Shown here: positions 5,089 through 51,409 of the stretch, one piece after another | Layout: each line of letters starts with the position of its first letter | Numbering within the stretch: the stretch's first letter is position 1 | DNA from: Heliocidaris erythrogramma | Lineage: Eukaryota > Echinodermata > Echinoidea > Camarodonta > Echinometridae | Assembly: GCA_025617745.1 (NCBI GenBank) | Contig: CM046864.1 | Coordinates: forward strand, 32,307,239-32,371,238 | Direction: 5' to 3' | Length of the DNA stretch: 64,000 bases | The notes under the pieces: model-generated | Seen by the model: only the letters and a program-made list of their open reading frames with translations | Told to the model about the DNA's origin: nothing | Databases searched by the model: none | Program-made: the position numbers and the translations under genes

Positions 5089-5209
5089 TATACATAGACT
5101 TTCCCTCTTATTTTCTGCTTTATCGACCTAGCAACGAAGAGGTATGATCAAACATGGTACATAATCGAGTTACAGGTACCATTATGTGTACGCACAAATG
5201 GTTCTAGGA

Positions 5210-5690
5210 TTCCTACCCCCTGGACAACCACCCCCCGGATAACCACCCCTAGGATAGCCACCCTCTAGGACAACTACCCCCTAGGACAACTACCCCCTAG
5301 GGCAACCACCCCCTAGGACAACTCCCCCCCCCCCCCGGATAACTACCCCCAGACAACTACCGCCTAGGACAACCACCCCTAGGGCAACTACCCCCAGGAC
5401 AACTACCCCCCGGACAACCACCCCTAGGACAACTACCCCCAGGACAACAACCCCCAGGAAAACTACCCCCCCCCCCCCGGACAATCACCCCCTAGAACAA
5501 CTACCCCCAGGACAACTACCCCCGGACAACCACCCTCCTGGACAACCACCCGCTGGACAACTACCCCCAGGACAACTACCCCCCCGGACAACCACCCTCC
5601 TGGACAACCACCCCCTGGACAACTACCACCCGGACAACTACCCCCCAGACAACCACCCCCTAGGACAACCACCCTCTATGACAATTACCC
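5210..5690 (-). repeat. left outer array of C-rich 15-mers
   Basis: About 30 head-to-tail copies of AGGACAACYACCCCC with small length and base variation. Opposite-strand frames reading as Gly/Val-rich repeats are translations of the array and not genes. The complementary strand has runs of 4-6 G every 10-12 bases, so it is capable of G-quadruplex formation. Confidence 0.9.
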
Positions 5691-5885
5691 CCAGACGCGT
5701 ATTTTTTCTGTCAGGATTTGCGCCACTGACAAGAGAGGGCAGTATTTGAGCGTCAAGAAGCCCCGTTTTGGAGACTTTGAGACTACAACTTTAAGACTTG
5801 TATCTTCTCTCAGTTTCACCTTACTTTATTTCAGCAAAAGAAAATTTTGTCAATGATACTTTCCTAAATTCTAACACCCCTTAGC

Positions 5886-5960
5886 CTGCCGAGGCTGGAA
5901 CTCGTGGTTCCTTAATGACGAGCACAACGTGAATCCGAATGCGCCACGCAAGGAACTGCG
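5886..5960 (-). other. tRNA-like/SINE-head sequence in left arm (degraded)
   Basis: Read on the minus strand, this is the mirror copy of the tRNA-like sequence in the right arm. Its B-box is altered, with ACGAGTTCCAGCC in place of ACGAGTTCGAGCC. This copy is presumably inactive as a pol III promoter. Confidence 0.4.
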
Positions 5961-6558
5961 TGACTGGTTCGCTAATTTTATTATATCCCTACAATTTGTT
6001 TTTCATGAATATTCATGCCGACTAGTCTTGACGGAATAAACCGTATTGTCACCCCTCTTGACGCTTAAATACTGCCCTCTCTCGTCGGGTGGCTCAAGTC
6101 CTGACAGAAAAAAAATATAGCCCCCCGGACAACTACCCCAGGACAACCACCCTCTAGGAAAAGTACCCCAAATTGGACTTAACATCACATTGAACAAGAT
6201 TGTGCTCGTTCGCTACGCTCGCTCGCCAAAATAGAATAAATATGGCCTTTAGCAAGATTTCTGCCCGGACCTGCAACAATAAAGCCCAGATAATATACCA
6301 AATTTTATTAAAAGAGAAGTGTTTGTTTTCGCTCATGCTTGCTCGCTTAATTGTTCCTCCTCCAACTTTTTTTTTTCTTCAGTGCATGAAGGCAGGTATT
6401 CCCATGTGCAATATCAACTCTCTATTAGATGTTTTGCATGATCAACAATTAAGGGGGGGCGGGAAGGAAAACAAATATTCCAGCCGTTTGTCACACCCCC
6501 CCCCCCCCACCCCCTCTCCCTCACGCACTCTACAATTATGCAACTCGTTACAAAGCTA

Positions 6559-6903
6559 CCAGCCAATCGAGTATTAAAGGAAACTAGCATTGTGGTTTGG
6601 TCGATTAAAAAAAAATAGTATGGGGTATACAATCATGTTAAGATGGATGAGAAATTCAACTGTACAATGCACCATCAAACACCGAGTTTAAACACCCAAC
6701 TTTTGAAACAAAAATGTAATACCAGGGGAAATCCCTCCCCCCCCCCCCCCCCCCCCGTGATCATGGGTATAGACACATTTAACTCACGTGGTGAGGTGAA
6801 TTTTATCATTATAATGCACCAAAATCCTATTTATAACCAGATTTCCAAAACGTTCTTACCGTGGGAGGTGGATACCCCCTCCTCTGGATACTCATTATAT
6901 ATA
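6559..6903. other. central spacer of fold-back element
   Basis: Unpaired loop of the palindrome. It contains a poly-C tract near 6730-6757 and no recognisable coding region. The two inner arms run up to it at a shared boundary sequence, CAACTCGTTACA on the left and its complement on the right. Confidence 0.6.
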
Positions 6904-7624
6904 TTGTAACGAGTTGCATAATTGTAGAGTGCGTGAGGGAGAGGGGTGGGGGTGTGACAAACGGCTGGAATATTTGTTTTCCTTCCCGCCCCCCCCCCCC
7001 CCCCTTAATTGTTGATCATGCAAAACATCTAATAGAGAGTTCGTATTGCACATGGGAATACCTGCCTTCATGCATTGAACAAAAAACAACAACAAACAAA
7101 AAGCAAAAACAAACAATTCTTTTTAAATGATAGTATATATATATAAACTAGTTTTTGTTGTTGTTTTTTTTAATGTGACAAAATAAGTTTTATTGTTGGA
7201 AGTTGGAGGAGGAACAATTAAGCGAGCAAGCATGAGCGAAAACAAACACTTCTCTTTTAATAAAATTTGGTATATTATCTGGGCTTTATTGTTGCAGGTC
7301 CGGGCAGAAATCTTGTTAAAGGCCATATTTATTCTATTTTGGCGAGCGAGCGTAGCGAACGAGCACAATCTTGTTCAATGTGATGTTAAGTCCAATTTGG
7401 GGTACTTTTCCTAGAGGGTGGTTGTCCTGGGGTAGTTGTCCGGGGGGGGGGGGGCTATATTTTTTTCTGTCAGGACTTGAGCCACCCGACGAGAGAGGGC
7501 AGTATTTAAGCGTCAAGAGGGGTGACAATACGGTTTATTCCGTCAAGACTAGTCGGCATGAATATTCATGAAAAACAAATTGTAGGGATATAATAAAATG
7601 AGCGAACCAGTCACGCAGTTCCTT

Positions 7625-7695
7625 GCGTGGCGCATTCGGATTCACGTTGTGCTCGTCATGAAGGAATCACGAGTTCGAGCCTCGGCAGGCTAAGG
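7625..7695 (+). other. tRNA-like/SINE-head sequence in right arm
   Basis: TGGCGCATTCGG resembles a pol III A-box and GAGTTCGAGCC a B-box (consensus RGTTCGANNCC), about 45 bases apart, as in tRNAs and tRNA-derived SINEs. I could not fold a full cloverleaf. I call it a tRNA-derived SINE head captured by the element and not a tRNA gene. Confidence 0.4.
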
Positions 7696-7782
7696 GGTGT
7701 TAGAATTTAGGAAAGTATCATTGACAAAATTTTCTTTTGCTGAAACAAAGTAAGGTGAAACTGAGAGAAAATACAAGTCTAG

Positions 7783-8190
7783 AGGGTGGTTGTCCTAGGG
7801 GGTGATTGTCTGGGGGTAGTTGTCCGGGGGGTAGTTGTCCTGGGGGTAGTTGTCCAGGGGGTGGTTGTTCAGGGAGTGGTTGTCCGGGGGTAGTTGTCCT
7901 GGGGGTAGTTGTCCTAGGGGGTGGTTGTCCGGGGGGTAGTTGTCCGGGGGGTAGTTGTCCTAGGGGGTAGTTGTCTGGGGGGTAGTTATCCGGGGGTAGT
8001 TGTCCTAGACTGTGGTTGTCCTAGGGGGTAGTTGTCTGGGGGGTAGTTATCTGGGGGTACTTGTCCTAGGGGGTAGTTGTCCTAGAGGGTGGTTGCCCTA
8101 GGGGGTAGTTGTCCTAGGGGGTAGTTGTCCTAGATGGTGGTTATCCTAGGGGTGGTTATCCGGGGGTGGTTGTCCAGGGGGTAGGTGTCC
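7783..8190 (+). repeat. right outer array of G-rich 15-mers
   Basis: About 26 tandem copies of GGGGGTAGTTGTCCT and variants (CTAGGGGGTAGTTGTC), complementary to the left array. Frequent GGGGG tracts make this a strong G-quadruplex candidate. Confidence 0.9.
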
Positions 8191-11904: not shown

Positions 11905-12592
11905 AAGCTATAGGTAGTAGTACTCCGGGGTGTTCCTTTCTTTTAAGCGTTTTAATCTTTGCTTGTGACAGACAGTTCAGGGGCCAAATGCTGCCTTTTT
12001 CTCCTTTTTAAAAAAATAGTTATATGACTAAAGACAGATAACAATGGAAGAAAGGAAGAAACAAGATAATGGATACATATAGTTTTAGAAGACGTATAAT
12101 TTTTATGATGCCAACTCTCTGATTTTGTTCCAGTTCTGAATAGTTGAAAGAATGAAAGGAAAAGGATGGATGGTCTGAGTACTCAAGGATAATGGTCAGT
12201 TGGACACTCATGGACAATGAACAGTTAGACTGATTTGTTGGAGAGGTTATTTATTTCATACTCTTGTGTTTCAGTTCAACAGTAATAATCTTGTTAACAT
12301 GTTCAATCTTAGTATGCTTCTAGGAAAACTATTGTCAACCGCTTTACTATTCACAGGTGTGAATTCATTGTATTGTTTTACTGATTTATATGTGTGTTGT
12401 TTTACAATCTTTATTGAAGTGTACATTCATGTTCTTTTGTTGTGTATTTGTCCTGTTTTGTATTTGTTATGCCTCCTATGCCAGTTTGCCAGATTATAGT
12501 GTTGAAATGATGATAACACAAGGGAATTTGTGGGAGAGTGTGAAGATTCATGTACCTGTAGTAAATACACATTTTACCTTATTGTTATATAA
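11905..12592 (+). other. unusually long ORF1-ORF2 spacer
   Basis: About 690 bases of AT-rich sequence with stops in all frames between the two LINE ORFs. No domain or repeat recognised. ORF2 would need internal entry, reinitiation or a separate transcript. Confidence 0.5.
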
Positions 12593-15500
12593 ATGACAAG
12601 TTTAGAAGTGATTAGTTTTAATTGTAGAGGCATAGCAAATAATTTCAAAAGAAAAAAAATATTTTCATTTCTACATGAAAAACAATTCGATGTCATATGT
12701 TTACAGGAAACCCATTCCCTTAAGGAAGATGAATCTCTATGGAAAACTCAATGGGGAGTTCAGGCCTGTTTTTGTAGTTATGAATCCAGAAGCAAAGGGG
12801 TCGCAATATTATTTAAGCCATCCCTGAATGTTAAGAATTGCAGTTTTTTGAGTGATGAGAATGGTAGATTTATTATTTTACAGATTCACATTGATGAATT
12901 GGAATATATTTTAGTCAACCTTTATGGGCCTAATGAGGATAGTCCTGATTTTTTTGTGGATGTCTTTGGAAATTTGGAGGAAATAGGAAATACTAATATT
13001 ATTATGGCTGGGGATTTAAACATTGCAGTTGGCCCTCTTGATTATAGGGGAACCCGTGATTATCATGGTAATGTCAATGCAAAATCTATGTTTAATTTGT
13101 ATGTTGATGAGTTTAATTTGATTGAGGTGTGGAGGAAAGATCATAACAATACCCTAGGTTTTACAAGACAACAGCAAAACCCCCCTGATTTTTCAAGACT
13201 AGAGTATATTTTTGTATCAAGTGAATTAATTAGCCAGGTAAAACATTCCAAAATAAGTACTGGAATTTGTTCAGACCATTCTTTGGTCTCAATGAAGATG
13301 ACATCTGGTTGTCCTGTCCGTGGGAAAGGGTACTGGAAGTGTAATTGTTACTACTTAAGACATGATGCTGACTTTGTACTATTTATTAAGGATAAGATAA
13401 AGGAGTATAAGGAAATACACAAAAATTCAGATTTAAACCCTAATGTACTGTGGGATGCCTTTAAATGTTACATTGCTGGTTTTTGTGTGGAATATTCAAT
13501 TAGAAAGAAGAGGGAGAGAAAGAAAAGAAAGGAAGATTTACTAAGGAAGATTTCTGAGTCTAAACAAAAACTCTCAATCTCTCAAGATACATGTAGATTA
13601 AGTGATAACAACTCTGATATTGTTCACCTTTTTAGGGAAATAGAAGAATTAGAGATTGAATTAAATGATATAATAGATAAAGAAACAGCAGGATTGATTG
13701 TGAGATCACGTATAAAATGGGCTGAGCATGGAGAAAAGAGTAGTAAATACTTCTGTAATTTAGAAAAACGAAATAATGATAAGAAAATTATTCGTCAAAT
13801 TAGGTCAAATGAGGGAAATGTTTACGTAGAACCTGATAAAATTCTGGAAGAAATTGGTGATTATTTTGAATCTTTATATTCCTCTAATTGCTCCCGAGAG
13901 GACGTTGATGTTGCCTCCCTTTTCATTTCAGGTTTGGATGTACCAAGAATAGATGCAAATGAAAGGGAAATTTTGAATGGCCCAATAACAAAATCTGAAT
14001 TATGGTCAGTCTTGAAATCAATGTCCTCAAATAAAACTCCAGGGTTGGATGGTCTTCCAAGTGAATTTTATGTAGTGTTTTTTAATGATATTGTAGATTT
14101 GATGCTGGATTCTTTCAATTTTTCTTTTTCTAATGGTTTGTTAAGTCAATCTCAACGAAATGGAGTAATAACTCTGATATTGAAGCCAGGTAAAGATCCA
14201 TTAGAAACCAAAAGTTATAGGCCCATTTCCTTATTAAATGTAGATTACAAATTAATTGCCAAAGTAATGAGTCATAGACTTAAAAGGGTAATTAATTCTC
14301 TAATTCATACAGATCAGCAGGGATTTTTAAGTGGGCGTAATATAAGTGCAAACATTCGCACAATTATAGACCTCATTGAGTATACTGATGCTGTTGATGC
14401 TCCTGGTTCAATAATTCTATTAGATTTTGAAAAAGCTTTCGATAGAATCGAACATGAATATTTATTTAAGTCGTTAGAACAGTTTGATCTTGGTGAGAAT
14501 TTTATAAATATTGTAAAAACATTTTATAATTGTAGATACAGTTATGTTATAAATAATGGATTTTTAACAAAGCCCTTCCCTATGACTCGTGGTATTTTTC
14601 AAGGATGCCCTATTTCACCTTATCTGTTTGTTTTGGCAATCGAAATGTTAGCTACTGCAATAAGGGTTAGCCCTGATATTAAAGGAATTAAGATAGGTAA
14701 AATAGAAAAAAAGGTTGGTCTATTTGCTGATGATACTATTTGCTTTTTGGATGGTGAAATGGACTCGTTTGTTAATTTATTTGAATTGTTAAAATATTTT
14801 GAAAGCTTTTCAGGATGTCGAGTAAATATGTCAAAATCTGAGGCCATATATATTGGAAGTTTAAAGAATAGTGAAGAAAAACCTTTTGAAAACAAAGGAC
14901 TTAATTGGAGAAGTAATACCTTTAAAGCACTGGGAGTTACGTTTTCTTTGCAGACCAAGTGTTTGTATGAACTTAATTATCCCATGAAATTGAAAAAGAT
15001 AGAACAAGTTATGAATTGCTGGAGACAGAGGAGTTTATCTTTAATTGGAAAGATAGCAGTTGTTAAATCTCTTTTATTGCCCCAGCTATTGTATTTGTTC
15101 TCAGTCTTATGTATAGATGTCCCTAAATCCTTTTTCAAAAAGCTGAACAGGTTGCTTTATAAATTTATCTGGAATAATGGTAATGATAGGGTGAAAAGAG
15201 TCTTACTCGGTAATTTGTATGAAGAAGGTGGCCTTAAAATGATTGATCCAAGCACTTTTGCAAAATCACAGAAAATGGTTTGGGTAAAAAATATTTTGAA
15301 TGATAACTATGTGAGTACTTTGAAATGTATAGAAATAGAAATGTGTAGATTGTTTCATAATGACCCAGATTTACTTTGGAAAGCAGAAGCTCCTCTGAGT
15401 GTACTGAAGAAATTGAAAAATTGTCAATTGATTGAAACTTTGAAAGTCTGGTACGAATATAGATCTTTAGTTATGAAAGAATTGAATTTACATAATTACC

Positions 15501-18720: not shown

Positions 18721-19860
18721 ACAAGCACGATCGAGTGTAGCACACGACAATTGCAATAACAAATATGTCGATTACCTTTCTTTCCAGTATCATTTTAGCT
18801 ACCAAAACTGTATGTGAGGTTTTATAATTAGGATATTTTTGGTTCTGATTACAAAACAAAGGGAAAATTGTGTTTTTTGAAAACTCGATTTATTAATGAG
18901 ATTTCGCTCTTTAGCTTTGATTGTCCTGTATTTTAGATCTAGATATTGATCTAGATGATAGTATCAAACAGAAAAAAAAAACATATGATGACATTTATGA
19001 ATACTGAAAAACACTAGATTTAATGCTTAAGATATTCATAAAAATGAAAAACATACAAAAAACACACAAACATAATTATAAAATAGAACATAATGATTAG
19101 AATGTCTGTAGGGCTTTCCATAAGCATTTTACACAAAAGGCTATTCTTCAAAAATGAAAAAATCTAACTATTGACATTATGAATTCATGGATGAATAAAT
19201 AGCATTTGTATAACTCATAGTAAATTAGTAAGCACTAATAAAGCTGTTTTAACAAAGGTTTCTTAGTTCATCAAGATTTTTTTTTTACTATTTATTTACA
19301 TAATATGAATTTTATATTTTATTTCCTAATGACTTTCTGCAGCCATTCCATAACGCTGTATCATTTCATATTTTGCATCAAATTTCAAATATTTTCAGAT
19401 TTCCAGGACCATGGTGACATATCAAGACTAACATACTACAGAAAGCAGCAGCAATCTTAAAAACATGATCCATATTTAAATTGTACAGAGATTGAGCAAT
19501 ATTCAGCAATAAAGTAATATAATATTCAATATTTCATCTATTTGAAGAATGGCTGACATGAAACTCAACGCTTCTGAAAGTACCTGATATTTGTTTATGT
19601 ATTGTACTTGTAATAGACCTGTTTACTAATGTATTTAAATGTATGCATGTTTCTCTCCAGAATCCTTAGTTACCAACTATTTAGTGGACCTATTTTGGAT
19701 AATGGTAATGTTCTTTCTTTTGTTTGTTTTGAGTAGAGTATAATACTGACATTAAAGGGCCTTTCAATTAAGTGAAGTGACAAGAAAAGTGCACCTATAC
19801 CTATAGTTAGTATAGAACTAAGTGCTTCATCTTTGAGCAGCATATACAAAACAAATTATA
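18721..19860. other. AT-rich noncoding stretch
   Basis: No gene, repeat or RNA motif supported. Short frames are random. Confidence 0.4.
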
Positions 19861-27081: not shown

Positions 27082-27693
27082 TTGTTAAAGGACCTACTGG
27101 AGGATGATGAACTATTGGATACTCTCAATGCCTTAATATCAAAGGCTGTAGATACCAAATTGCTCCAAATTCAATCTCAACTTGATATACAAGATGGTAT
27201 CATTCTTGATCTTCGGAGTAATTTGGAGGGAGCACGAAATGACATCATTCGTACCACAAAGGAGCTCGAATCTGCGTTGGAAAAGATAAAGAAAATTAGT
27301 TATGAACAAAATAAACAGGAGCAATACTCCCGGAGAAATTGTGTGAGAGTATATGGAGTGAAGGAATCTACAAAGGAGAATACTGATGCTCTCATTTGTC
27401 GAATCGCGAAAGAAAAACTCTCCATTGATCTCGAACCAAAGCACATCGACCGAAGTCATCGAGTTGGAAAGCAAAGGGAACCTGCAAAATCAGCTGGACC
27501 TAAGCCTGTACCGCCAAGACCAATAATAGTTAAATTAACCATCTATAAATACAGGCAGCTACTCATCACCAACAGGAGATCCCTCAAACATACCGGCATG
27601 GGAATTCAGGAAGACTTGACTGATTTCAATAGTAATGCGTTGTTTAATATTTTCAATGTCATAAATGTGATGACATATGTCTGCTTTTTGTAA
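27082..27693 (+). pseudogene. LINE ORF1-like fragment
   Basis: An open frame of about 200 codons without a credible start: coiled coil (LESALEKIKKISYEQNKQEQ), then YSRRNCVRVYGV, a non-LTR ORF1 RNA-binding start, then RSHRVGKQRE, RPIIVKL and KHTGMGIQEDLT, the last being the usual C-terminal-domain motif. After EDLT the frame runs into unrelated sequence (FNIFNVINVMTYVCF) and stops, so the 3' end is lost. The 5' end starts exactly at the breakpoint of the duplicated segment. It would be an RNA-binding chaperone if complete. It differs clearly from the ORF1 at 11097 and represents another LINE family. Confidence 0.65.
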
Positions 27694-28138: not shown

Positions 28139-28172
28139 CTAAAGTATTAATGGAGTCAAAAGGGGCCTGAGC

Positions 28173-28199
28173 TTTCGATCCTAGCAGAATCTTCGTCAG
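28173..28199 (-). ncRNA. hammerhead-ribozyme-like core, second site
   Basis: On the minus strand: CTGACGA, one A, hairpin GATTC-TGCTA-GGATC, then GAAA followed by GCTCAGGCCCC. It has the same layout, including the extra A before stem II, as the motif at 21025-21047 but a different stem II sequence. Shared architecture with changed stem bases is what a constrained RNA would show. Probably a Penelope-like terminal remnant; no coding part of one is adjacent. Confidence 0.45.
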
Positions 28200-28415
28200 A
28201 GGCAAAAAGACGAAAATAAAGACCAAGACAAGCATATATATAGACTACAGGCACAAGACAGATTACATGTAACAGAAACTGTAAGGGAGAAGCTGTGGAC
28301 ACAAAACAATGGGAACAAAAGGGGAGTGTTGGGAGTCAAAACCCATGAGTCAAGTGGGTGTGGAGGGGGATTAAAATAAATACAAAGGCGTGGAGATCAA
28401 AGGAGAGTAATAAGT
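28200..28415. other. noncoding junction before the fucosyltransferase array
   Basis: Sequence between the second hammerhead-like motif and the first fucosyltransferase copy. Probably retroelement-derived. No gene seen. Confidence 0.35.
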
Positions 28416-29408
28416 AATAAACAATCTGAAAATAAGACACCTTGTTACCGTCAGGTTCAGGTCTGGAGAGGCAGCGGAAACCCCGAAACGCCAGAAAAAT
28501 TTGAATGCCCAGGGCTTCAATGTGGGATAAGGTTTGTCCAAGATAAAAACTTCCAGACAATGGCGAATAGTGACGCGGTAGTTTTGTTTCATAGATCGCG
28601 ATGGAATTGGGCTGAAATGCAAAGGAGGCGCCCGTCGAATCAAGCCTGGGTTTTCTATTCCTTAGAGAGTCCTCGACATACTGGTGGAAATGCAATACCA
28701 CCCAGTGATTACGAATACTTGTACAACTACACAATGTCATACAGGCCGACGTCAACGATATATTCTCCTTATGGTACGTACAATAACAGCCGTCCACAAA
28801 TATCTCCTGAGGAAAATCGAAATTGGGCCAAAGAGAAAAATGGTTTGGTGGTCTGGATGGCATCCAATTGTAGAGTAGCTTCTTGGAGGCGTCATGACTT
28901 TGTGAAAACTCTCGCAAAGCACATCAGCGTTGCTATGTTTGGCGCTTGTGGAAGTAAACGTTGTGATAGGAATTCAGATGACTGCTGGAACCGCATATCT
29001 ACTTACAAGTTTTACCTCGCATTGGAAAACAGCGAATGTAGGGACTACATCACTGAAAAGTTTTGGTGGAACTCTCTATACCACAATATTGTACCCATCG
29101 TCTATGGCCCACCCAGGGAAGATTACGAGCGAGTTGCACCCCCAAATTCGTTCATACATCTACAAGACTTTAAAAACTTTGATGAATTCATTGACTATAT
29201 AAATCTTTTAAATTCAAACGATACTTTGTACAATTCATATTTTGAATGGAAACGTCATGGATCAGTAAGGAGAAGTAACGTTCTCCGTTGTTTATGTGTA
29301 AAGTTGTCTCAAAAGTTTTGGATCATGAAAATAAGTTATCTGGTAGTAATCAACTACAGGAAGAAAGGAATCCTTCCATTCATGATTTCTGGTCAACTAC
29401 TTGTCTGA
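28416..29408 (+). pseudogene. alpha-1,3-fucosyltransferase (GT10), copy 1, 5'-truncated
   Basis: The longest uninterrupted frame of the array. It starts inside the stem-proximal region (QSENKTPCYRQVQVW), so it lacks the first ~70 residues including the membrane anchor seen in copies 2-5. It then reads through ESPRHTGG, YNYTMSYRPTSTIYSPYG and the GT10 signature ALENSECRDYITEKFW...VPIVYG. GT10 enzymes transfer fucose from GDP-fucose to GlcNAc of Golgi glycans (Lewis-type or core fucosylation). The centre of the gene is intact only in this copy. A 13-nt deletion after RRSN changes the C-terminus. Without an anchor it is probably inactive, unless an upstream exon is spliced on. Confidence 0.8.
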
Positions 29409-30360
29409 AAGCAACCGGTTTTCCCCATGACTTCTAGTTCCCAATTTCACCGTAGGGGAGAGCGGGGTGAAGTGGGACAAGAATCGTGATTTGGCACTCT
29501 TTGCTTTGTAACTTGTAAAATATTAATTGTAGCCTCTCCATTTATACATGGTAAATAGTATCAATAGTAGGCTGCTATCGCTTCAAGCTACAAAAATTCC
29601 TGAATCGCTATGGAGTGTGTGTGTGGGGGGGGGGGTTGGGGGTGAGGGGGGGGGGGTAATGTAGCTGATGTTAAGATCTTGAATTGCCGGGGAAAGGGGG
29701 AAGTGGTGTCCCCAAAGAAGAGAAGGGAGCTGGAGAGAGATGCATGGCCGGCCGGGGCGAAAGTCTTACTTCGGAGGGGACGGGAGCAGGGTCCAAGGGC
29801 TAAAATTCATTTTATTGGGAGTGGAGAGGGGCTCTGGCATCAACATTTTTCCACGGCCGAGGAAGAGATCTCAAAATAAAATTTAATTTAATTAAAAAAA
29901 CGGCAGCCCCCGAGGTGTGAAATGCGGAATATGCTACTAAACCTCCTCAGCGACTAAGCATTACGCCTGTGTGTTTGCTAAATGAGAGGGCCACCGCCCT
30001 CTAACCCCGATATTGAAGGGTTGCAGCCATACGCTCGGGATTTGCATCCCCACCCCCACACAGCCCGACTGACAATGACTGGATCCGCCACTGAACAATT
30101 GGAGCAGCACAACGTACACGACATATACTGGACCTTGCGATCCGTGGATTACCTTGGATCCTGTGTCAATAGTAACGAGAGGCGTCTCTGTATTAGGTTC
30201 ATCCTGGGATAGTCATGATAACAATCCTAGGTTTAGCCTAGGATATTTTGTGGATGGGCTGACATTACAGGAACAAAGCGAAATATCTTCTCTTTATTTA
30301 TGTACCATTGTCGCCTTGTATTTGGTTGATGACTTTATGTAAAGCAGCAGTTTGGAAACG

Positions 30361-31560
30361 ATGCAGGAGAGCAAAGGCAAACGACTGATCCCATTTTACA
30401 TCGCAGTGATAACATGTGTTAGCGTTGCAGTTCGCTACGAACAGAAAGATGGTTACAGAGCGCCCCCGATAGCTCCGTACGTGTTACGGAATACCAGCTT
30501 GGGAGCAAACCCGAAGCTTCAACCAGAAGCTTACCGGGAGATTTCTTCCGGCCTACAAAATGAAACCATTAAACAATCTGAAAATAAGACACCTTGTTAC
30601 CGTCAGGTTCAGGTCTGGATAGGCAGCGGAAACCCCGAAACGCCAGAAAAATTTGAATGCCCAGGGCTTGAATGTGGGATAAGGTTTGTCCAAGATAAAA
30701 ACTTCCATACAATGGCGAATAGTGACGCGGTAGTTTTGTTTCATAGATCGCGATGGAATTGGGCTGAAATGCAAAGGAGGCGCCCGTCGAATCAAGCCTG
30801 GGTTTTCTATTCCTTAGAGTCCTCGACATGCTGGTGGAAATGCAATACCACCCAGTGATTACGAATACTTGTATAACTACACAATGTCATACAGGCCGAC
30901 GTCAACGATAATATTCTCCTTATGGTACGTACAATAACAGCCGTCCACAAAATATCTCCTGAGGAAAATCGAAATTGGGCCAAAGAGAAAAATGGTTTGG
31001 TGGTCTGGATGGCATCTAATTGTAGAGTAGCTTATTGGAGGCGTCAAGACTTTGTGAAAACACTCGCAAAGCACGTCAGCGTTGCTATGTTTGGCGCTTG
31101 TGGAAATAAACGTTGTGATAGGAATTCAGATGACTGCTGGAACCGCATATCTACTTACAAGTTTTACCTCGCATTGGAAAACAGCGAATGTAGGGACTAC
31201 ATCACTGAAAAGTTTTGGTGGAACTCTCTATACCACAATATTGTACCCATCGTCTATGGCCCACCCAGGGAAGATTACGAGCGCGTTGCACCCCCAAATT
31301 CGTTCATACATCTACAAGACTTTAAAAACTTTGATGAATTCATTGACTATATAAATCTTTTAAATTCAAACGATACTTTGTACAATTCATATTTTGAATG
31401 GAAACGTCATGGATCAGTAAGGAGAAGTAACGTTCTCCGTTGTTTATGTGTAAAGTTGTCTCAAAAGTTTTGGATCATGAAAATAAGTTATCTGGTAGTA
31501 ATCAACTACAGGAAGAAAGGAATCCTTCCATTCATGATTTCTGGTCAACTACTTGTCTGA
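30361..31560 (+). pseudogene. alpha-1,3-fucosyltransferase (GT10), copy 2
   Basis: ATG at 30361 gives MQESKGKRLIPFYIAVITC, a type II signal-anchor, then the stem and donor-domain start. A 2-nt loss relative to copy 1 (GAGTCC for GAGAGTCC, near 30817) leads to a stop at 30856. Two single-base additions (GATAATATTC, CACAAAATATC) then restore the original frame, which runs from about 30950 through the GT10 signature to 31560. The net frame is kept but about 40 codons are scrambled and contain a stop. The 13-nt C-terminal deletion is shared with copy 1. An upstream TTG in frame is not needed as the start. Confidence 0.82.
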
Positions 31561-32513
31561 AACCAACCGGTTTTCCCCATGACTTCTAGTTCCCAATTTC
31601 ACCGTAGGGGAGAGCGGGGTGAAGTGGGACAAGAATCGTGATTTGGCACATCTTTGCTTTGTAACTTGTAAAATATTAATTGTAGCCTCTCCATTTATAC
31701 ATGGTAAATAGTATCAATAGTAGGCTGCTATCGCTTCAAGCTACAAAAATTCCTGAATCGCTATGGAGTATGTGTGTGTGGGGGGGGGGGGGTTGGGGGT
31801 GAGGTTGGGGGTAATAGCTGATGCTAAGATCTTGAATTGCCGGGGAAAGGGGGAAGTGGTGTCCCCAAAGAAGAGAAGGGAGCTGGAGAGAGATGCATGG
31901 CCGGCCGGGGCGAAAGTCTTACTTCGGAGGGGACGGGAGCAGGGTCCAAGGGCTAAAATTCATTTTATTGGGAGTGGAGAGGGGCTCTGGCATCAACATT
32001 TTTCCAAGGCCGAGGAAGAGATCTCAAAATAAAATTTAATTTAATTTAAAAAACGGCAGCCCCCGAGGTGTGAAATGCGGAATATGCTACTAAACCTCCT
32101 CAGCGACTAAGCATTACACCTGTGTGTTTGCTAAATGAGAGGGCCACCGCCCTCTAACCCCGATATTGAAGGGTTGCAGCCATACGCTCGGGATTTGCAT
32201 CCCCACCCCCACACAGCCCGACTGACAATGACTGGATCCGCCACTGAACAATTGGAGCAGCACAACGTACACGACATATACTGGACCTTGCGATCCGTGG
32301 ATTACCTTGGATCCTGTGTCAATAGTAACGAGAGGCGTCTCTGTACTAGGTTCATCCTGGGATAGTCATGATAACAATGCTAGGTTTAGCCTAGGATATT
32401 TTGTGGATGGGCTGACATTACAGGAACAAAGCGAAATATCTTCTCTTTATTTATGTACCATTGTCGCCTTGTATTTGGTTGATGACTTTATGTAAAGCAG
32501 CAGTTTGGAAACG

Positions 32514-33756
32514 ATGCAGGAGAGCAAAGGCAAACGACTGATACCATTTTACATCGCAGTGATAACACGTGTTAGCGTTGCAGTTCGCTACGAACAGAAA
32601 GATGGTTACAGAGCGCCCCCGATAGCTCCGTACGTGTTACGGAATACCAGCTTGGGAGCAAACCCGAAGCTTCAACCAGAAGCTTACCGGGAGATTTCTT
32701 CCGGCCTACAAAATGAAACCATTAAACAATCTGAAAATAAGACACCTTGTTACCGTCAGGTTCAGGTCTGGATAGGCAGCGGAAACCCCGAAACGCCAGA
32801 AAAATTTGAATGCCCAGGGCTTGAATGTGGGATAAGGTTTGTCCAAGATAAAAACTTCCATACAATGGCGAATAGTGACGCGGTAGTTTTGTTTCATAGA
32901 TCGCGATGGAATTGGGCTGAAATGCAAAGGAGGCGCCCGTGGAATCAAGCCTGGGTTTTCTATTCCTTAGAGTCCTCGACATACTGGTGGAAATGCAATA
33001 CCACCCAGTGATTACGAATACTTGTACAACTACACAATGTCATACAGGCCGACGTCAACGATAATATTCTCCTTATGGTACGTACAATAACAGCCGTCCA
33101 CAAAATATCTCCTGAGGAAAATCGAAATTGGGCCAAAGAGAAAAATGGTTTGGTGGTCTGGATGGCATCCAATTGTAGAGTAGCTTCTTGGAGGCGTCAT
33201 GACTTTGTGAAAACTCTCGCAAAGCACATCAGCGTTGCTATGTTTGGCGCTTGTGGAAGTAAACGTTGTAATAGGAATTCAGATGACTGCTGGAACCGCA
33301 TATCTACTTACAAGTTTTACCTCGCATTGGAAAACAGCGAATGTAGGGACTACATCACTGAAAAGTTTTGGTGGAACTCTCTATACCACAATATTGTACC
33401 CATCGTCTATGGCCCATCCAGGGAAGATTACGAGCGCGTTGCACCCCCAAATTCGTTCATACATCAACAAGACTTTAAAAACTTTGATGAATTCATTGAC
33501 TACATAAATCTTTTAAATTCAAACGATACTTTGTACAATTCATATTTTGAATGGAAACGGTCATGGATCAGTAAGGAGAAGTAACGAGAAAGAAATTTTT
33601 TCTCCGTTGTTTATGTGTAAAGTTGTCTCAAAAGTTTTGGATCATGAAAATAAGTTATCTGGTAGTAATCAACTACAGGAAGAAAGGAATCCTTCCATTC
33701 ATGAGTTCTGGTCAACTACTTGTCTGAAACCAACCGGTTTTCCCCATGACTTCTAG
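32514..33756 (+). pseudogene. alpha-1,3-fucosyltransferase (GT10), copy 3
   Basis: Same anchor and stem as copy 2, with the same three central indels. The signature region is intact but an extra G in AAACGGTCATGG (near 33560) shifts the frame and stops at 33584. The normal C-terminus (SPLFMCKVVSKVLDHENKL, then STTCLKPTGFPHDF) remains readable in the next frame to 33756. The C-terminal deletion of copies 1 and 2 is absent. Confidence 0.82.
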
Positions 33757-34686
33757 TTCCCAATTTCACCGTAGGGGAGAGCGGGGTGAAGTGGGACAAG
33801 AATCGTGATTTGGCACTCTTTGCTTTGTAACTTGTAAAATATTAATTGTAGCCTCTCCATTTATACGTGGTAAATAGTATCAATAGTAGGCTGCTATCCC
33901 TTCAAGCTACAAAAATTCCTGAATCGCTATGGAGTGTGTGTGTGGGGGGGGGGGGGGGGGGGTTGGGGGTGAGGGGGGGGGGTAATGTAGCTGATGTTAA
34001 GATCTTGAATTGCCGGGGAAAGGGGGAAGTGGTGTCCCCAAAGAAGAGAAGGGAGCTGGAGAGAGATGCATGGCCGGCTGGGGCGAAAGTCTTACTTCGG
34101 AGGGGACGGGAGCAGGGTCCAAGGGCTAAAATTCATTTTATTGGGAGTGGAGAGGGGCTCTGGCATCAACATTTTTCCACGGCCGAGGAAGAGATCTCAA
34201 AATAAAATTTAATTTAATTAAAAAAACGGCAGCCCCCGAGGTGTGAAATGCGGAATATGCTACTAAACCTCCTCAGCGACTAAGCATTACGCCTGTGTGT
34301 TTGCTAAATGAGAGGGCCACCGCCCTCTAACCCCGATATTGAAGGGTTGCAGCCATACGCTCGGGATTTGCATCCCCACCCCCACACAGCCCGACTGACA
34401 ATGACTGGATCCGCCACTGAACAATTGGAGCAGCACAACGTACACGACATATACTGGACCTTGCGATCCGTGGATTACCTTGGATCCTGTGTCAATAGTA
34501 ACGAGAGGCGTCTCTGTACTAGGTTCATCCTGGGATAGTCATGATAACAATCCTAGGTTTAGCCTAGGATATATTGTGGATCGGCTGACATTACAGGAAC
34601 AAAGCGAAATATCTTCTCTTTATTTATGTACCATTGTCGCCTTGTATCTGGTTGATGACTTTATGTAAACCAGCAGTTTGGAAACG

Positions 34687-35926
34687 ATGCAGGAGAGCAA
34701 AGGCAAACGACTGATACCATTTTACATCGCAGTGATAACATGTGTTAGCGTTGCAGTTCGCTACGAACAGAAAGATGGTTACAGAGCGCCCCGATAGCTC
34801 CGTACGTGTTACGGAATACCAGCTTGGGAGCAAACCCGAAGCTTCAACCAGAAGCTTACCGGGAGATTTCTTCCGGCCTACAAAATGAAACCATTAAACA
34901 ATCTGAAAATAAGACACCTTGTTACCGTCAGGTTCAGGTCTGGAGAGGCAGCGGAAACCCCCAAACGCCAGAAAAATTTGAATGCCCAGGGCTTGAATGT
35001 GGGATAAGGCTTGTCCAAGATAAAAACTTCCATACAATGGCGAATAGTGACGCGGTAGTTTTGTTTCATAGATCGCGATGGAATTGGGCTGAAATGCAAA
35101 GGAGGCGCCCGTCGAATCAAGCCTGGGTTTTCTATTCCTTAGAGTCCTCGACATACTGGTGGAAATGCAATACCACCCAGTGATTACGAATACTTGTACA
35201 ACTACACAATGTCATACAGGCCGACGTCAACGATAATATTCTCCTTATGGTACGTACAATAACAGCCGTCCACAAATATCTCCTGAGGAAAATCGAAATT
35301 GGGCCAAAGAGAAAAATGGTTTGGTGGTCTGGATGGCATCTAATTGTAGAGTAGCTTATTGGAGGCGTCAAGACTTTGTGAAAACACTCGCAAAGCACGT
35401 CAGCGTTGCTATGTTTGGCGCTTGTGGAAATAAACGTTGTGATAGGAATTCAGATGACTGCTGGAACCGCATATCTACTTACAAGTTTTACCTCGCATTG
35501 GAAAACAGCGAATGTAGGGACTACATCACTGAAAAGTTTTGGTGGAACTCTCTATACCACAATATTGTACCCATCGTCTATGGCCCACCCAGGGAAGATT
35601 ACGAGCGCGTTGCACCCCCAAATTCGTTCATACATCTACAAGACTTTAAAAACTTTGATGAATTCATTGACTACATAAATCTTTTAAATTCAAACGATAC
35701 TTTGTACAATTCATATTTTGAATGGAAACGTCATGGATCAGTAAGGAGAAGTAACGAGAAAGAATTTTTTTCTCCGTTGTTTATGTGTAAAGTTGTCTCA
35801 AAAGTTTTGGATCATGAAAATAAGTTATCTGGTAGTAATCAACTACAGGAAGAAAGGAATCCTTCCATTCATGATTTCTGGTCAACTACTTGTCTGAAAC
35901 CAACCGGTTTTCCCCATGACTTCTAG
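34687..35926 (+). pseudogene. alpha-1,3-fucosyltransferase (GT10), copy 4
   Basis: It has an additional 1-nt loss (GCGCCCCGATAG for GCGCCCCCGATAG, near 34792) just after the anchor, then the 2-nt central loss and one added base. It lacks the second added base of copies 2 and 3, so the frame is not restored by the same route. From about 35321 to the stop at 35926 the frame is open through the GT10 signature to the family-like C-terminus (TTCLKPTGFPHDF), the only copy whose C-terminal half is undamaged. Confidence 0.82.
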
Positions 35927-36853
35927 TTCCCAATTTCACCGTAGGGGAGAGCGGGGTGAAGTGGGACAAGAATCGTGATTTGGCACATCTTTGCTTTGTA
36001 ACTTGTAAAATATTAATTGTAGCCTCTCCATTTATACATGGTAAATAGTATCAATAGTAGGCTGCTATCGCTTCAAGCTACAAAAATTCCTGAATCGCTA
36101 TGGAGTATGTGTGTGTGGGGGGGGGGGGGGTTGGGGGTGAGGGTGGGGGTAATGTAGCTGATGTTAAGATCTTGAATTGCCGGGGAAAGGGGGAAGTGGT
36201 GTCCCCAAAGAAGAGAAGGGAGCTGGAGAGAGATGCATGGCCGGCTGGGGCGAAAGTCTTACTTCGGAGGGGACGGGAGCAGGGTCCAAGGGCTAAAATT
36301 CATTTTATTGGGAGTGGAGAGGGGCTCTGGCATCAACATTTTTCCAAGGCCGAGGAAGGGATCTCAAAATAAAATTTAATTTAATTTAAAAAACGGCAGC
36401 CCCCGAGGTGTGAAATGCGGAATATGCTACTAAACCTCCTCAGCGACTAAGCATTACGCCTGTGTGTTTGCTAAATGAGAGGGCCACCGCCCTCTAACCC
36501 CGATATTGAAGGGTTGCAGCCATACGCTCGGGATTTGCATCCCCATCCCCACACAGCCCGACTGACAATGACTGGATCCGCCACTGAACAATTGGAGCAG
36601 CACAACGTACACGACATATACTGGACCTTGCGATCCGTGGATTACCTTGGATCCTGTGTCAATAGTAACGAGAGGCGTCTCTGTACTAGGTTCATCCTGG
36701 GATAGTCATGATAACAATCCTAGGTTTAGCCTAGGATATTTTGTGGATCGGCTGACATTACAGGAACAAAGCGAAATATCTTCTCTTTATTTATGTACCA
36801 TTGTCGCCTTGTATCTGGTTGATGACTTTATGTAAACCAGCAGTTTGGAAACG

Positions 36854-38095
36854 ATGCAGGAGAGCAAAGGCAAACGACTGATACCATTTTACATCGCAGT
36901 GATAACATGTGTTAGCGTTGCAGTTCGCTACGAACAGAAAGATGGTTACAGAGCGCCCCCGATAGCTCCGTACGTGTTACGGAATACCAGCTTGGGAGCA
37001 AACCCGAAGCTTCAACCAGAAGCTTACCGGGAGATTTCTTCCGGCCTACAAAATGAAACCATTAAACAATCTGAAAATAAGACACCTTGTTACCGTCAGG
37101 TTCAGGTCTGGAGAGGCAGCGGAAACCCCGAAACGCCAGAAAAATTTGAATGCCCAGGGCTTGAATGTGGGATAAGGTTTGTCCAAGATAAAAACTTCCA
37201 GACAATGGCGAATAGTGACGCGGTAGTTTTGTTTCATAGATCGCGATGGAATTGGGCTGAAATGCAAAGGAGGCGCCCGTCGAATCAAGCCTGGGTTTTC
37301 TATTCCTTAGAGTCCTCGACATACTGGTGGAAATGCAATACCACCCAGTGATTACGAATACTTGTACAACTACACAATGTCATACAGGCCGACGTCAACG
37401 ATAATATTCTCCTTATGGTACGTACAATAACAGCCGTCCACAAATATCTCCTGAGGAAAATCGAAATTGGGCCAAAGAGAAAAATGGTTTGGTGGTCTGG
37501 ATGGCATCCAATTGTAGAGTAGCTTCTTGGAGGCGTCATGACTTTGTGAAAACACTCACAAAGCACGTCAGCGTTGCTATGTTTGGCGCTTGTGGAAATA
37601 AACGTTGTGATAGGAATTCAGATGACTGCTGGAACCGCATATCTACTTACAAGTTTTACCTCGCATTGGAAAACAGCGAATGTAGGGACTACATCACTGA
37701 AAAGTTTTGGTGGAACTCTCTATACCACAATATTGTACCCATCGTCTATGGCCCATCCAGGGAAGATTACGAGCGCGTTGCACCCCCAAATTCGTTCATA
37801 CATCTACAAGAATTTAAAAACTTTGATGAATTCATTGACTACATAAATCTTTTAAATTCAAACGATACTTTGTACAATTCATATTTTGAATGGAAACGGT
37901 CATGGATCAGTAAGGAGAAGTAACGAGAAAGAAATTTTTTCTCCGTTGTTTATGTGTAAAGTTGTCTCAAAAGTTTTGGATCATGAAAATAAGTTATCTG
38001 GTAGTAATCAACTACAGGAAGAAAGGAATCCTTCCATTCATGATTTCTGGTCAACTACTTGTCTGAAACCAACCGGTTTTCCCCATGACTTCTAG
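36854..38095 (+). pseudogene. alpha-1,3-fucosyltransferase (GT10), copy 5
   Basis: Intact anchor and stem up to the 2-nt loss (stop at 37349). The catalytic half is open again from about 37489. The extra G of copy 3 is present, ending the frame at 37923, with the normal C-terminus readable in the next frame to 38095. It resembles copy 3 more than its neighbour copy 4. Confidence 0.82.
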
Positions 38096-38110
38096 TTCCC
38101 AATTTCACCG

Positions 38111-40053
38111 TAGGGGAGAGCGGGGTGAAGTGGGACAAGAATCGTGATTTGGCACTCTTTGCTTTGTAACTTGTAAAATATTAATTGTAGCCTCTCCATT
38201 TATACATGGTAAATAGTATCAATAGTAGGCTGCTATCCCTTCAAGCTACAAAAATTCCTGAATCGCTATGGAGTGTGTGTGTGGGGGGGGGTTGGAGGTG
38301 AGGGTGGGGGGTAATGTAGCTGATGTTAAGATCTTGAATTGCCGGGGAAAGGGGGAAGTGGTGTCCCCAAAGAAGAGAAGGGAGCTGGAGAGAGATGCAT
38401 GGCCGGCTGGGGCGAAAGTCTTACTTCGGAGGGGACGGGAGCAGGGTCCAAGGGCTAAAATTCATTTTATTGGGAGTGGAGAGGGGCTCTGGCATCAACA
38501 TTTTTCCACGGCGGAGGAAGGGTTCTCAAAATAAAATTTAATTTAATTTTAAAAACGGCAGCCCCCGAGGTGTGAAATGCGGAATATGCTACTAAACCTC
38601 CTCAGCGACTAAGCATTACGCCTGTGTGTTTGCTAAATGAGAGGGCCACCGCCCTCTAACCCCCATATTGAAGGGTTGCAGCCATACGCTCGGGATTTGC
38701 ATCCCCATCCCCACACAGCCCGACTGACAATGACTGGATCCGCCACTGAACAATTGGAGCAGCACAACGTACACGACATATACTGGACCTTGCGATCCGT
38801 GGATTACCTTGGATCCTGTGTCAATAGTAACGAGAGGCGTCTCTGTACTAGGTTCATCCTGGGTTAGTCATGATAACAATCCTAGGTTTAGCCTAGGGTA
38901 TTATGTACCATTGTATCGCCTCAAGCTACTTAGCTTATGATGGCTAGCCCCTGCATTCACTTAATTTCGATATTATTATTATATTTCAAGTTTTAAGATT
39001 TCAGAATATATTTGTATATATATATATATATATATAATTGTTGTTTTTTTTTCATTACAATTTAAGTATATTAACTGTCGCACTTCTTGTTTATCAATCG
39101 CCTTATAAATTGTATGATAAAGAAACAAATTTGTAATACTTCTTTCATCAATAAATGCAGAAACAACTGCAAAAAACACAAAAAACCCAAGGTATTTGAC
39201 ACAATCCCTTTATATTTAGTGTTCATGCAAATAATCATTAAAAATTAGGTACTTGAATGGGGTGAAGTGGGAAAAAAGTCTTGAAAATGCTTTTTTCCCC
39301 CTCTTAGATGTCTAAAATAAGTGGTGGGAATGTTAAAGGAAATATATTACTTTAAAAAAACTTGCTTGAAAGTCACTTGTAAAGTTGAATTAAAGATTCA
39401 TGTCCATTTAAATAATATTGGAAGACATGATGAACGTTTTGTAAATTTTAAACTATACTTCGACGGTTTGGGGCAAAAATGAAAAGTTGTTTATTACACA
39501 AGAGTTTGTCTGAAGCAGTATGAACGAACTCTAAAAAGGAATGACCAATATGTATTTTAACGATTTTATGTAGAACCCAAAGATATTTTCTTGTAATATG
39601 TCTATAGATTATGGCTGATAATAGCTGATTTCCCTTACATACACAAAAAATAACCGGGGTGAACTGGGACAAGATATCCAAGTTCACCCCGATAGTAAAA
39701 AAACAAAAACAACAAGAAATGCCTGTAAAAAATAAGTGTTGGTATTGATCCCTAAAAATAATATTGCAAATTAAAGGGTCATATAAGACTTATATGCTGT
39801 ATGCGGGGTGTTCACTATAGCCAAGTGGTATACTTATAAATTATCTGACAATGAATGATGAAAAATACAAAAAAGTGGTCCAAAAAAGAAGTGAAAATTA
39901 AACCTACAAGCAAAATCGCAGTAGAGCTGTGGATGTATTTGTGAACATTGTTAGTTAAAACCTTTCGTAGGATTCAAACTAATTAATAAAAGGTTAATTA
40001 TTAGGGGTGGATTCCCAATTCTTCCGCGTCCCAGTTCACCCCGCTCTCCCCTA
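38111..40053. mobile_element. TIR element joined to the last array unit
   Basis: TAGGGGAGAGCGGGGTGAAG at 38111 and its inverse CTTCCGCGTCCCAGTTCACCCCGCTCTCCCCTA ending at 40053 form about 26-bp terminal inverted repeats with one or two mismatches. Internal copies of GGGGTGAAGTGGGA occur near 39257, and an inverted pair near 39657-39690. TA lies at both ends. The left TIR is also found in every fucosyltransferase unit (29453, 31605, 33772, 35942), the right TIR only here. No transposase is seen; the right half is AT-rich. Confidence 0.6.
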
Positions 40054-45615: not shown

Positions 45616-46333
45616 TGTAATAAGCTTGACATATCGTGTTGTAAGCTTTATAACTATGTTTGACTCACATTTAACAGGCATGACAACATAACGCTGCCTC
45701 TGGATGAATGAACATCGTATCACCTGCGTATCTCTCATATATCGCATTATCACCACTAGGTGGCGCTATTAACTTTCCTAACATAGACTCAGCTGAGTTA
45801 TATCATTACATCCCCCTTTTCATGAAGAAATGCAATTATAGTACCCGGTACATATATCATTTTTAGGTATCAAATCCAGAACAACATAATTCCAGATTTA
45901 TATGATAATGAACCTAAAATTAAAGTTCCAGTTCAGTCCAAAATTTGTGGTGTGGTTATAGTGTTTCATTTCAGTCCAGGTTCTTCAGTGTTCAAACTTG
46001 CTTGCTGCTGTAGTGAACTTTCTTGATCGCTTTTCAATTCAATGCTTGGTCAACATCGCTTGAGTAATAATTATTTCTAAATCAACTTAATACAACACTT
46101 AATACACAACACTTAGCATATGTATGTAAATGAGTAACCGAGGGGACTATCAGTTACTCTAACTGCACTAGAGGATTATTCTGCCTCTGAGATAGCACAG
46201 TTTTCCTACGTTTACTCTCATACAAAACTAAACCAACTATTTATAACACAACATGCAATACTTGTCTAAACTATAACTAACATGAGTGAAGGGGTGGACT
46301 ACCCAACACTCGAAACTGTACAAAAGGGGTTTA
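45616..46333 (-). repeat. 3' LTR of the Gypsy element
   Basis: Direct repeat of 50407-51124. It contains the CTCF-like word CCACTAGGTGGCGC at 45753-45766 and starts TGTAATAAGCTTG on the plus strand. Confidence 0.88.
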
Positions 46334-46391
46334 TTCTGCCCCTGTATATTTGTACAGTTACTATTTACAACTCTAACCTAACAGGGCATCT

Positions 46392-50406: not shown

Positions 50407-51124
50407 TGTAATAAGCTTGACATATCGTGTTGTAAGCTTTATAACTATGTTTGACTCACATTTAACAGGCATGACAACATGACGCTGCCTCTGGATCCAT
50501 GAACATCGTATCACCTGCGTATCTCTCATATATCGCATTATCACCACTAGGTGGCGCTATTAACTTTCCTAACACAGACTCAGCTGAGTTATATCATTAC
50601 ATCCCCCTTTTCATGAAGAAATGCAATTATAGTACCCGGTACATATATCATGTTTAGGTATCAAATCCAGAACAACATAATTCCAGATTTATATGATAAT
50701 GAACCTAAAATTAAAGTTCCAGTTCAGTCCAAAATTTGTGGTGTGGTTATAGTGTTTCATTTCAGTCCAGGTTCTTCAGTGTTCAAACTTGCTTGCTGCT
50801 GTAGTGAACTTTCTTGATCGCTTTTCAATTCAATGCTTGGTCAACATCGTTTGAGTAATAATTATTTCTAAATCAACTTAATACAACACTTAATACACAA
50901 CACTTAGCATATGTATGTAAATGAGTAACCGAGTGGACTATCAGTTACTCTAACTGCACTAGAGGATTATTCTGCCTCTGAGATAGCACAGTTTTCCTAC
51001 GTTTACTCTCATACAAAACTAAACCAACTTTTTATAACACAACATGCAATACTTGTCTAAACTATAACTAACATGAGTGAAGGGGTGGACTACCCAACAC
51101 TCTAAACTGTACAAAAGGGGTTTA
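50407..51124 (-). repeat. 5' LTR of the Gypsy element
   Basis: About 98-99% identical to the other LTR by eye. Would carry promoter and polyadenylation signals. CTCF-like word at 50544-50557. Confidence 0.88.
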
Positions 51125-51409
51125 TAAGCTTGACATATCGTGTTGTAAGCTTTATAACTATGTTTGACTCACATTTAACAGGCATGACAACATGACGCTG
51201 CCTCTGGATCCATGAACATCGTATCACCTGCGTATCTCTCATATATCGCATTATCACCACTAGGTGGCGCTATTAACTTTCCTAACACAGACTCAGCTGA
51301 TCCATGAACATCGTATCACCTGCGTATCTCTCATATATCGCATTATCACCACTAGGTAGCGCTATTAACTTTCCTAACACAGACTCAGCTGAGTTATCTC
51401 ATTACACTC
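51125..51409 (-). repeat. extra LTR fragment with internal duplication
   Basis: Begins TAAGCTTGACATATCG (LTR position 6) directly at the end of the 5' LTR and runs to CAGACTCAGCTGA. It then repeats about 105 bases from TCCATGAACATCG to GAGTTATCTCATTACA. It carries two further CTCF-like words at 51257-51270 and 51349-51362 (the latter AGGTAGCGC). Confidence 0.85.

Follow-up and report, generated by a model that had tools for sequence, protein, structure and literature searches.

The 64,000-base stretch of the Heliocidaris erythrogramma genome analysed here (the window, C12:32307239-32371238) carries what is, judged by its reading frames, a tandem array of GT10 (alpha-1,3-type) fucosyltransferase pseudogenes, disabled in all five copies. 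Comparisons were made across the 1.06-Gb genome (26 contigs). Self-comparison of the window resolved about 4.9 tandem units at positions 28418-38906, in agreement with the 2.16-kb units described in an earlier, sequence-only reading. On the forward strand, these are unit 1 (u1, 28418..30569; 2152 bases), unit 2 (u2, 30570..32722; 2153 bases), unit 3 (u3, 32723..34894; 2172 bases), unit 4 (u4, 34895..37062; 2168 bases) and the incomplete unit 5 (u5, 37063..38906; 1844 bases). Their mutual identity is 98.4-99.2%, and private substitutions are present in each of them. An interspersed repeat of about 267 bases with many genome copies (28149..28415, unstranded) adjoins the array.

Six further close relatives (L006, L008 and L039-L042) were identified at C12:31.70-31.77 Mb. 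The three with full frames, L006 (417 amino acids), L008 (423) and L039 (423), are intact single-frame GT10 fucosyltransferases. L006 matches PF00852 (1.3e-49) and PF17039 (1.8e-15), both above the curated cut-off, while the best match of L008 among solved structures is fucosyltransferase 9 (8d0o, 2e-34). In these domains and this match they resemble the animal alpha-1,3-fucosyltransferases of GT10 (PF00852/PF17039), from which the five array copies differ in being broken. Indels were scored against the intact 423-amino-acid L008, and frameshifting ones were found in every array copy. Gene copy 1 (28418..29437, forward strand, as are the other copies) additionally lacks the gene start: its first 239 nucleotides (nt) are absent as far as the edge of the interspersed repeat. 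It also carries a 13-base deletion at nt 1103 and is a chimera, as described below. Relative to L008, the indels are -30 (in frame), -2, +1, +1 and -13 in copy 2 (30361..31589); -30, -2, +1, +1 and +1 in copy 3 (32514..33756); -30, -1, -2 and +1 in copy 4 (34687..35926); and -30, -2, +1 and +1 in copy 5 (36854..38095), whose nearest copy, C2c, lies on another scaffold. The +1 at nt 582 is common to u2-u5 and two copies on scaffold C2, and the +1 at nt 1075 to u3, u5 and three C2 copies. An open frame in copy 1 (28560-29408) matches both GT10 domains, with the gene start absent and a frameshift near the end; a full-length open frame with both domains, as in L006, was found in none of the five array copies.

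The substitutions in the array look neutral. Variable coding sites among u1-u5 comprise 20 nonsynonymous and 6 synonymous changes, against 2830:774 for all possible changes (P=0.81). The ratio between L031 and L008, a more distant, constrained pair, is 111:79; this contrast with the array is weaker and only suggestive (P=0.087). The description of the array as unusual for a glycosyltransferase gene overlooked that all five copies are broken, and a homology-only count of fucosyltransferase genes in this genome would include dead copies. Multi-copy fucosyltransferases in an echinoderm are already in print, with several FUT4 and FUT7 copies reported from a sea cucumber genome (PMC10213396).

Marker alternation along the unit

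The sequence-only reading had proposed an A-B repeat in which copies 1, 3 and 5 are of one type and copies 2 and 4 of the other. At the four named marker pairs the copies sort exactly in this way: GGCACTCTTT occurs at 29493, 33812 and 38151 and its counterpart GGCACATCTTT at 31645 and 35982, and each of the other three pairs likewise occupies three places against two. The CACGTC/CACATC exception to the pattern is also present. As a property of whole units, the alternation fails, with conflicting blocks along the unit. Across the five units, ABABA was read in 6 of 46 gap-free variable columns. Excluding gaps within the G-run (about 29624-29651), 59 variable characters were scored, and 19 of them divide copies 1-4 into two pairs: 11 join 1 with 3 and 2 with 4 (13|24), 6 join neighbours (12|34) and 2 are of the type 14|23. 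These three topologies, rather than the same alternation along the whole unit, are arranged in seven runs, and as few runs arise in shuffles with P=0.014. Since this is fewer than most shuffles give, the characters lie in linked tracts; the markers, which had been taken as independent, were thus rejected as independent evidence for a dimer. The frequency of 13|24 compared with one third gives P=0.024 if sites are treated as independent, but in effect there are about seven blocks. Among the five copies, the informative characters form 300 pairs, 152 of which are incompatible with a single tree.

In copy 1 coordinates, the 13|24 blocks are located at 28865..28954 (six substitutions), 29497..29650 and 29854..29894, all on the forward strand. 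The 12|34 blocks comprise 29198..29280 (forward strand), with derived states common to copies 1 and 2 that include the 13-base deletion, position 29753, and 30256-30344. The 14|23 block spans 28468-28797.

Mean substitution divergence at lags 1, 2, 3 and 4 was 1.21, 1.03, 1.38 and 1.37%, respectively, within a range across units of 0.79-1.59%. Adjacent units are not always the closest relatives: overall the closest pairs are non-adjacent, as the earlier reading implied, with u2-u4 at 0.79% followed by u1-u3 at 0.93%. The lag-2 advantage was equalled or beaten in 14 of 120 orders of the five copies and, with the fifth copy set aside, in 6 of 24 orders of copies 1-4. In alpha satellites, the monomers within a unit are tens of percent apart, and copies of the whole unit differ by a few percent or less. 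Among our units, lag-2 copies are not far more alike than neighbours, which would be the satellite hallmark; the 4.9 units could contain no more than two dimers and a fraction of a third, and a repeat hierarchy of satellite type is not shown by the unit divergences. Satellite higher-order repeats of the alpha-satellite type (PMC9859433, PMC12385485) share with the array its tandem units and, in some blocks, lag-2 closest relatives, and differ from it in the hierarchy that is lacking here.

The second locus, scaffold C2 and the chimeric copy

An inverted second version of the region was identified on the same scaffold at about C12:31.89-31.94 Mb, some 400 kb off, with two gene copies (v1 and v2). 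Based on matches longer than 200-250 bases, a cut-off that also applies to a direct duplication observed in the region upstream of the window, it matches window positions 19708-62026 and extends as far as about 71.7 kb on the numbering of the window, interrupted by numerous indels. In matches of >700 bases starting beyond window base 19000, substitutions between the loci amount to 0.34-0.57% in the three longest stretches and reach 3.9% in other pieces. The order at the second locus is v1, a spacer 1.85 kb longer than that of the array, v2 and then the matching right flank. The right flank of the array (38914..39967, forward strand) is 96.9% homologous to the long spacer after v1. The mobile-element edge at which u1 is cut also truncates v1, and v2 lacks gene nt 99-940. 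Second-locus homology stops about 5 kb before a 500-N scaffold gap (31885328-31885827), which lies some 18 kb past the part homologous to the window; runs of N are absent from the window itself. The second locus could be the other haplotype or a true inverted duplication (paralogue).

In each unit, the junction at which 1.85 kb of spacer is missing is found at the position corresponding to 29587..29591 (forward strand), and it makes the short 2.16-kb unit. Gene starts are spaced 2153, 2173 and 2167 bases apart in the array, 4000 and 3624 bases apart on C2, and about 3.99 kb apart at the second locus (the start of v1 being extrapolated). Because the C2 array has a similar long spacing, loss rather than gain of the spacer is indicated, and the 2.16-kb unit would most simply be a shortened derivative of a longer one. 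The second locus was rejected as a plain pre-amplification state, since the units differ from one another by more than the best-matching stretches between the loci do. For the same reason a contracted array is possible there, and contraction seems at least as likely as a pre-amplification state; this assessment is not firm and is loosened by the 3.9% stretches. Neither are v1 and v2 pure A and B founders: over 28818-29017, v1 is 3, 3, 4, 3 and 1 sites away from u1-u5, respectively, and v2 is not consistently of one type. It is nearest to u2 and u4 at 29418-29617 and to u4 at 29618-29817, and it matches u1 and u3 without a difference at 29818-30017.

Links to scaffold C2 were observed for u5. 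Its gene divergence is 0.65% from C2c, 0.81% from its neighbour u4 and 0.97-0.98% from u1-u3, and the gene tree groups it with C2a-c (support 0.923). At the 10 variable sites in 29858-30209, u5 has the C2 spacer state at 9, the exception being 29965. This likeness may reflect exchange between scaffolds, common descent or a misplaced contig.

Polarity was assigned from the outside copies v1 and v2 (C12:31.92 Mb), the array at C2:70.71 Mb, L006 and L008. Derived states restricted to u1 and u3 were found at three sites (28910, 28923 and 28954), and those of u2 and u4 at 28865, 28882, 28895 and 29854, together with 29617, which v2 also has. Copies u1 and u2 share derived states at 29198, 30256, 30322 and 30344 and the 13-base deletion at 29280. 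The first two sets would favour a dimer and the third favours neighbours. Copy 1 is a chimera of v1-like and u3-like sequence: it is identical to v1 throughout 28418-28909, and the u3 states follow at 28910, 28923 and 28954. The switch point lies between 28797, the last agreement with v1 against u3, and 28910. The two-copy, long-spacer locus places both the founding deletion and this switch point to within about 100 bases or better.

Origin of the mosaic array

A short-spacer version beside a long-spacer one, broken copies, a chimera and mosaic relationships are all observed in this region. We consider it probable that a pseudogene array has become mosaic by unequal exchange and conversion, with dimer amplification possible and not needed. 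The ancestral tandem unit, about 4 kb long, would have lost 1.85 kb of its spacer, giving the 2.16-kb unit, although this direction is deduced; unit number would then have changed, and stretches been traded, by unequal crossing-over and gene conversion. Both processes are invoked because the block topologies conflict and copy 1 is chimeric, the two signs by which such exchange can be recognised, and the earlier suggestion that gene conversion has acted finds the same backing. The A-B alternation would be a residue in some blocks, several tracts in copies 2 and 4 and one short tract in copies 1 and 3. Unequal crossing-over and gene conversion are described for tandem arrays such as those of Trypanosoma brucei (PMC1855330). 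Such arrays in concerted evolution resemble ours in high identity, conflicting blocks and a copy number that differs between versions of the locus; here, however, none of the five copies is alive, and one of them groups with the array of another scaffold. The array also offers a small, clean example of linked conversion or crossover tracts mimicking a higher-order repeat when markers are judged by eye.

Several observations weigh against this reading. The 13|24 topology remains the commonest among the two-two characters, and u1+u3 and u2+u4 each have derived sites of their own, as duplication of a dimer predicts. By a hand count, with no model fitted, about 4 conversion tracts are needed with dimer duplication and about 5 without it. 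A strong test would require more than five units, and crossing-over and conversion are indistinguishable here.

The sequence-only reading had regarded amplification of a 4.3-kb dimer as the best explanation. In that case, a two-unit segment would have been duplicated once, giving A-B-A-B and a partial end copy, and conversion between neighbours would later have overwritten some blocks. In favour of it are the reciprocal derived states at 28865-28954 and the closeness of non-adjacent copies, with u2-u4 first and u1-u3 second. Copies 2 and 4 also pair in the gene tree (support 0.908), and among 22 two-versus-three splits of the units, 11 set apart either u2+u4 (6) or u1+u3 (5). The dimer signal is limited to blocks, because u1 and u2 share comparable derived characters elsewhere, the 13-base deletion included. 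The lag-2 advantage is small and is matched by 14 of 120 orders, and u5 groups with the C2 copies instead of u1 and u3. Moreover, as u1 derives from v1 as far as 28909, the A states that it shows at 28865-28895 are just the ancestral ones. A single shifted two-unit duplication was rejected as the sole explanation: it requires sharing between u3 and u5 before a breakpoint and between u1 and u3 after it, and the observed order is reversed. On balance, we regard dimer amplification as unlikely to be the main origin of the array.

A bolder combination, which we hold to be quite doubtful, is a satellite-like dead glycosyltransferase unit that was born by spacer deletion, was in part dimer-amplified and trades tracts with the array of another chromosome. 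If true, it would mean that pseudogene arrays of this genome evolve in concert between chromosomes. An assembly artefact, with misjoined haplotypes or reads making copies 1-2 and 3-4 two versions of one stretch, could draw on the inverted locus of the same scaffold, which is only 0.34-0.57% different in its three longest stretches, lies near the 500-N gap and could be an unmerged haplotype, and on several truncated repeats in matched pairs 0.1-0.8 Mb apart, but is very improbable given a unit divergence above that between the loci in those stretches, a window free of N runs and the substitutions peculiar to each of the five units.

Other features of the window

Direct repeats of 719 bases with 9 differences were observed at 45616-46334 and 50407-51125, with about 4.1 kb between them, resembling the ends of a long terminal repeat (LTR) element. 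At the matching place, the second locus has a single copy (C12:31914992-31915710), like a solo LTR. A long inverted repeat (about 85%; 5203-6553 and 6904-8190) carries a 15-base minisatellite in its arms, like a foldback element, and stretches related to 5203-8190 are present in the second locus region. Positions 12000-15500 hold a high-copy mobile element with six near full-length matches of at least 95% (itself included) and many partial ones. An open frame of 203 amino acids at 27082-27693, in a repeated stretch, had no Pfam match; by eye, we take it to resemble the first open reading frame of a long interspersed nuclear element. Finally, truncated repeats with equal ends, chosen by eye without a chance expectation, were observed in pairs 0.1-0.8 Mb apart at C11:23.32/23.44, C20:12.48/12.72, C21:40.52/40.72, C7:45.24/45.66 and C2:8.65/9.41 Mb. 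Such pairs point to haplotypes left unmerged in the assembly or to numerous local duplications.

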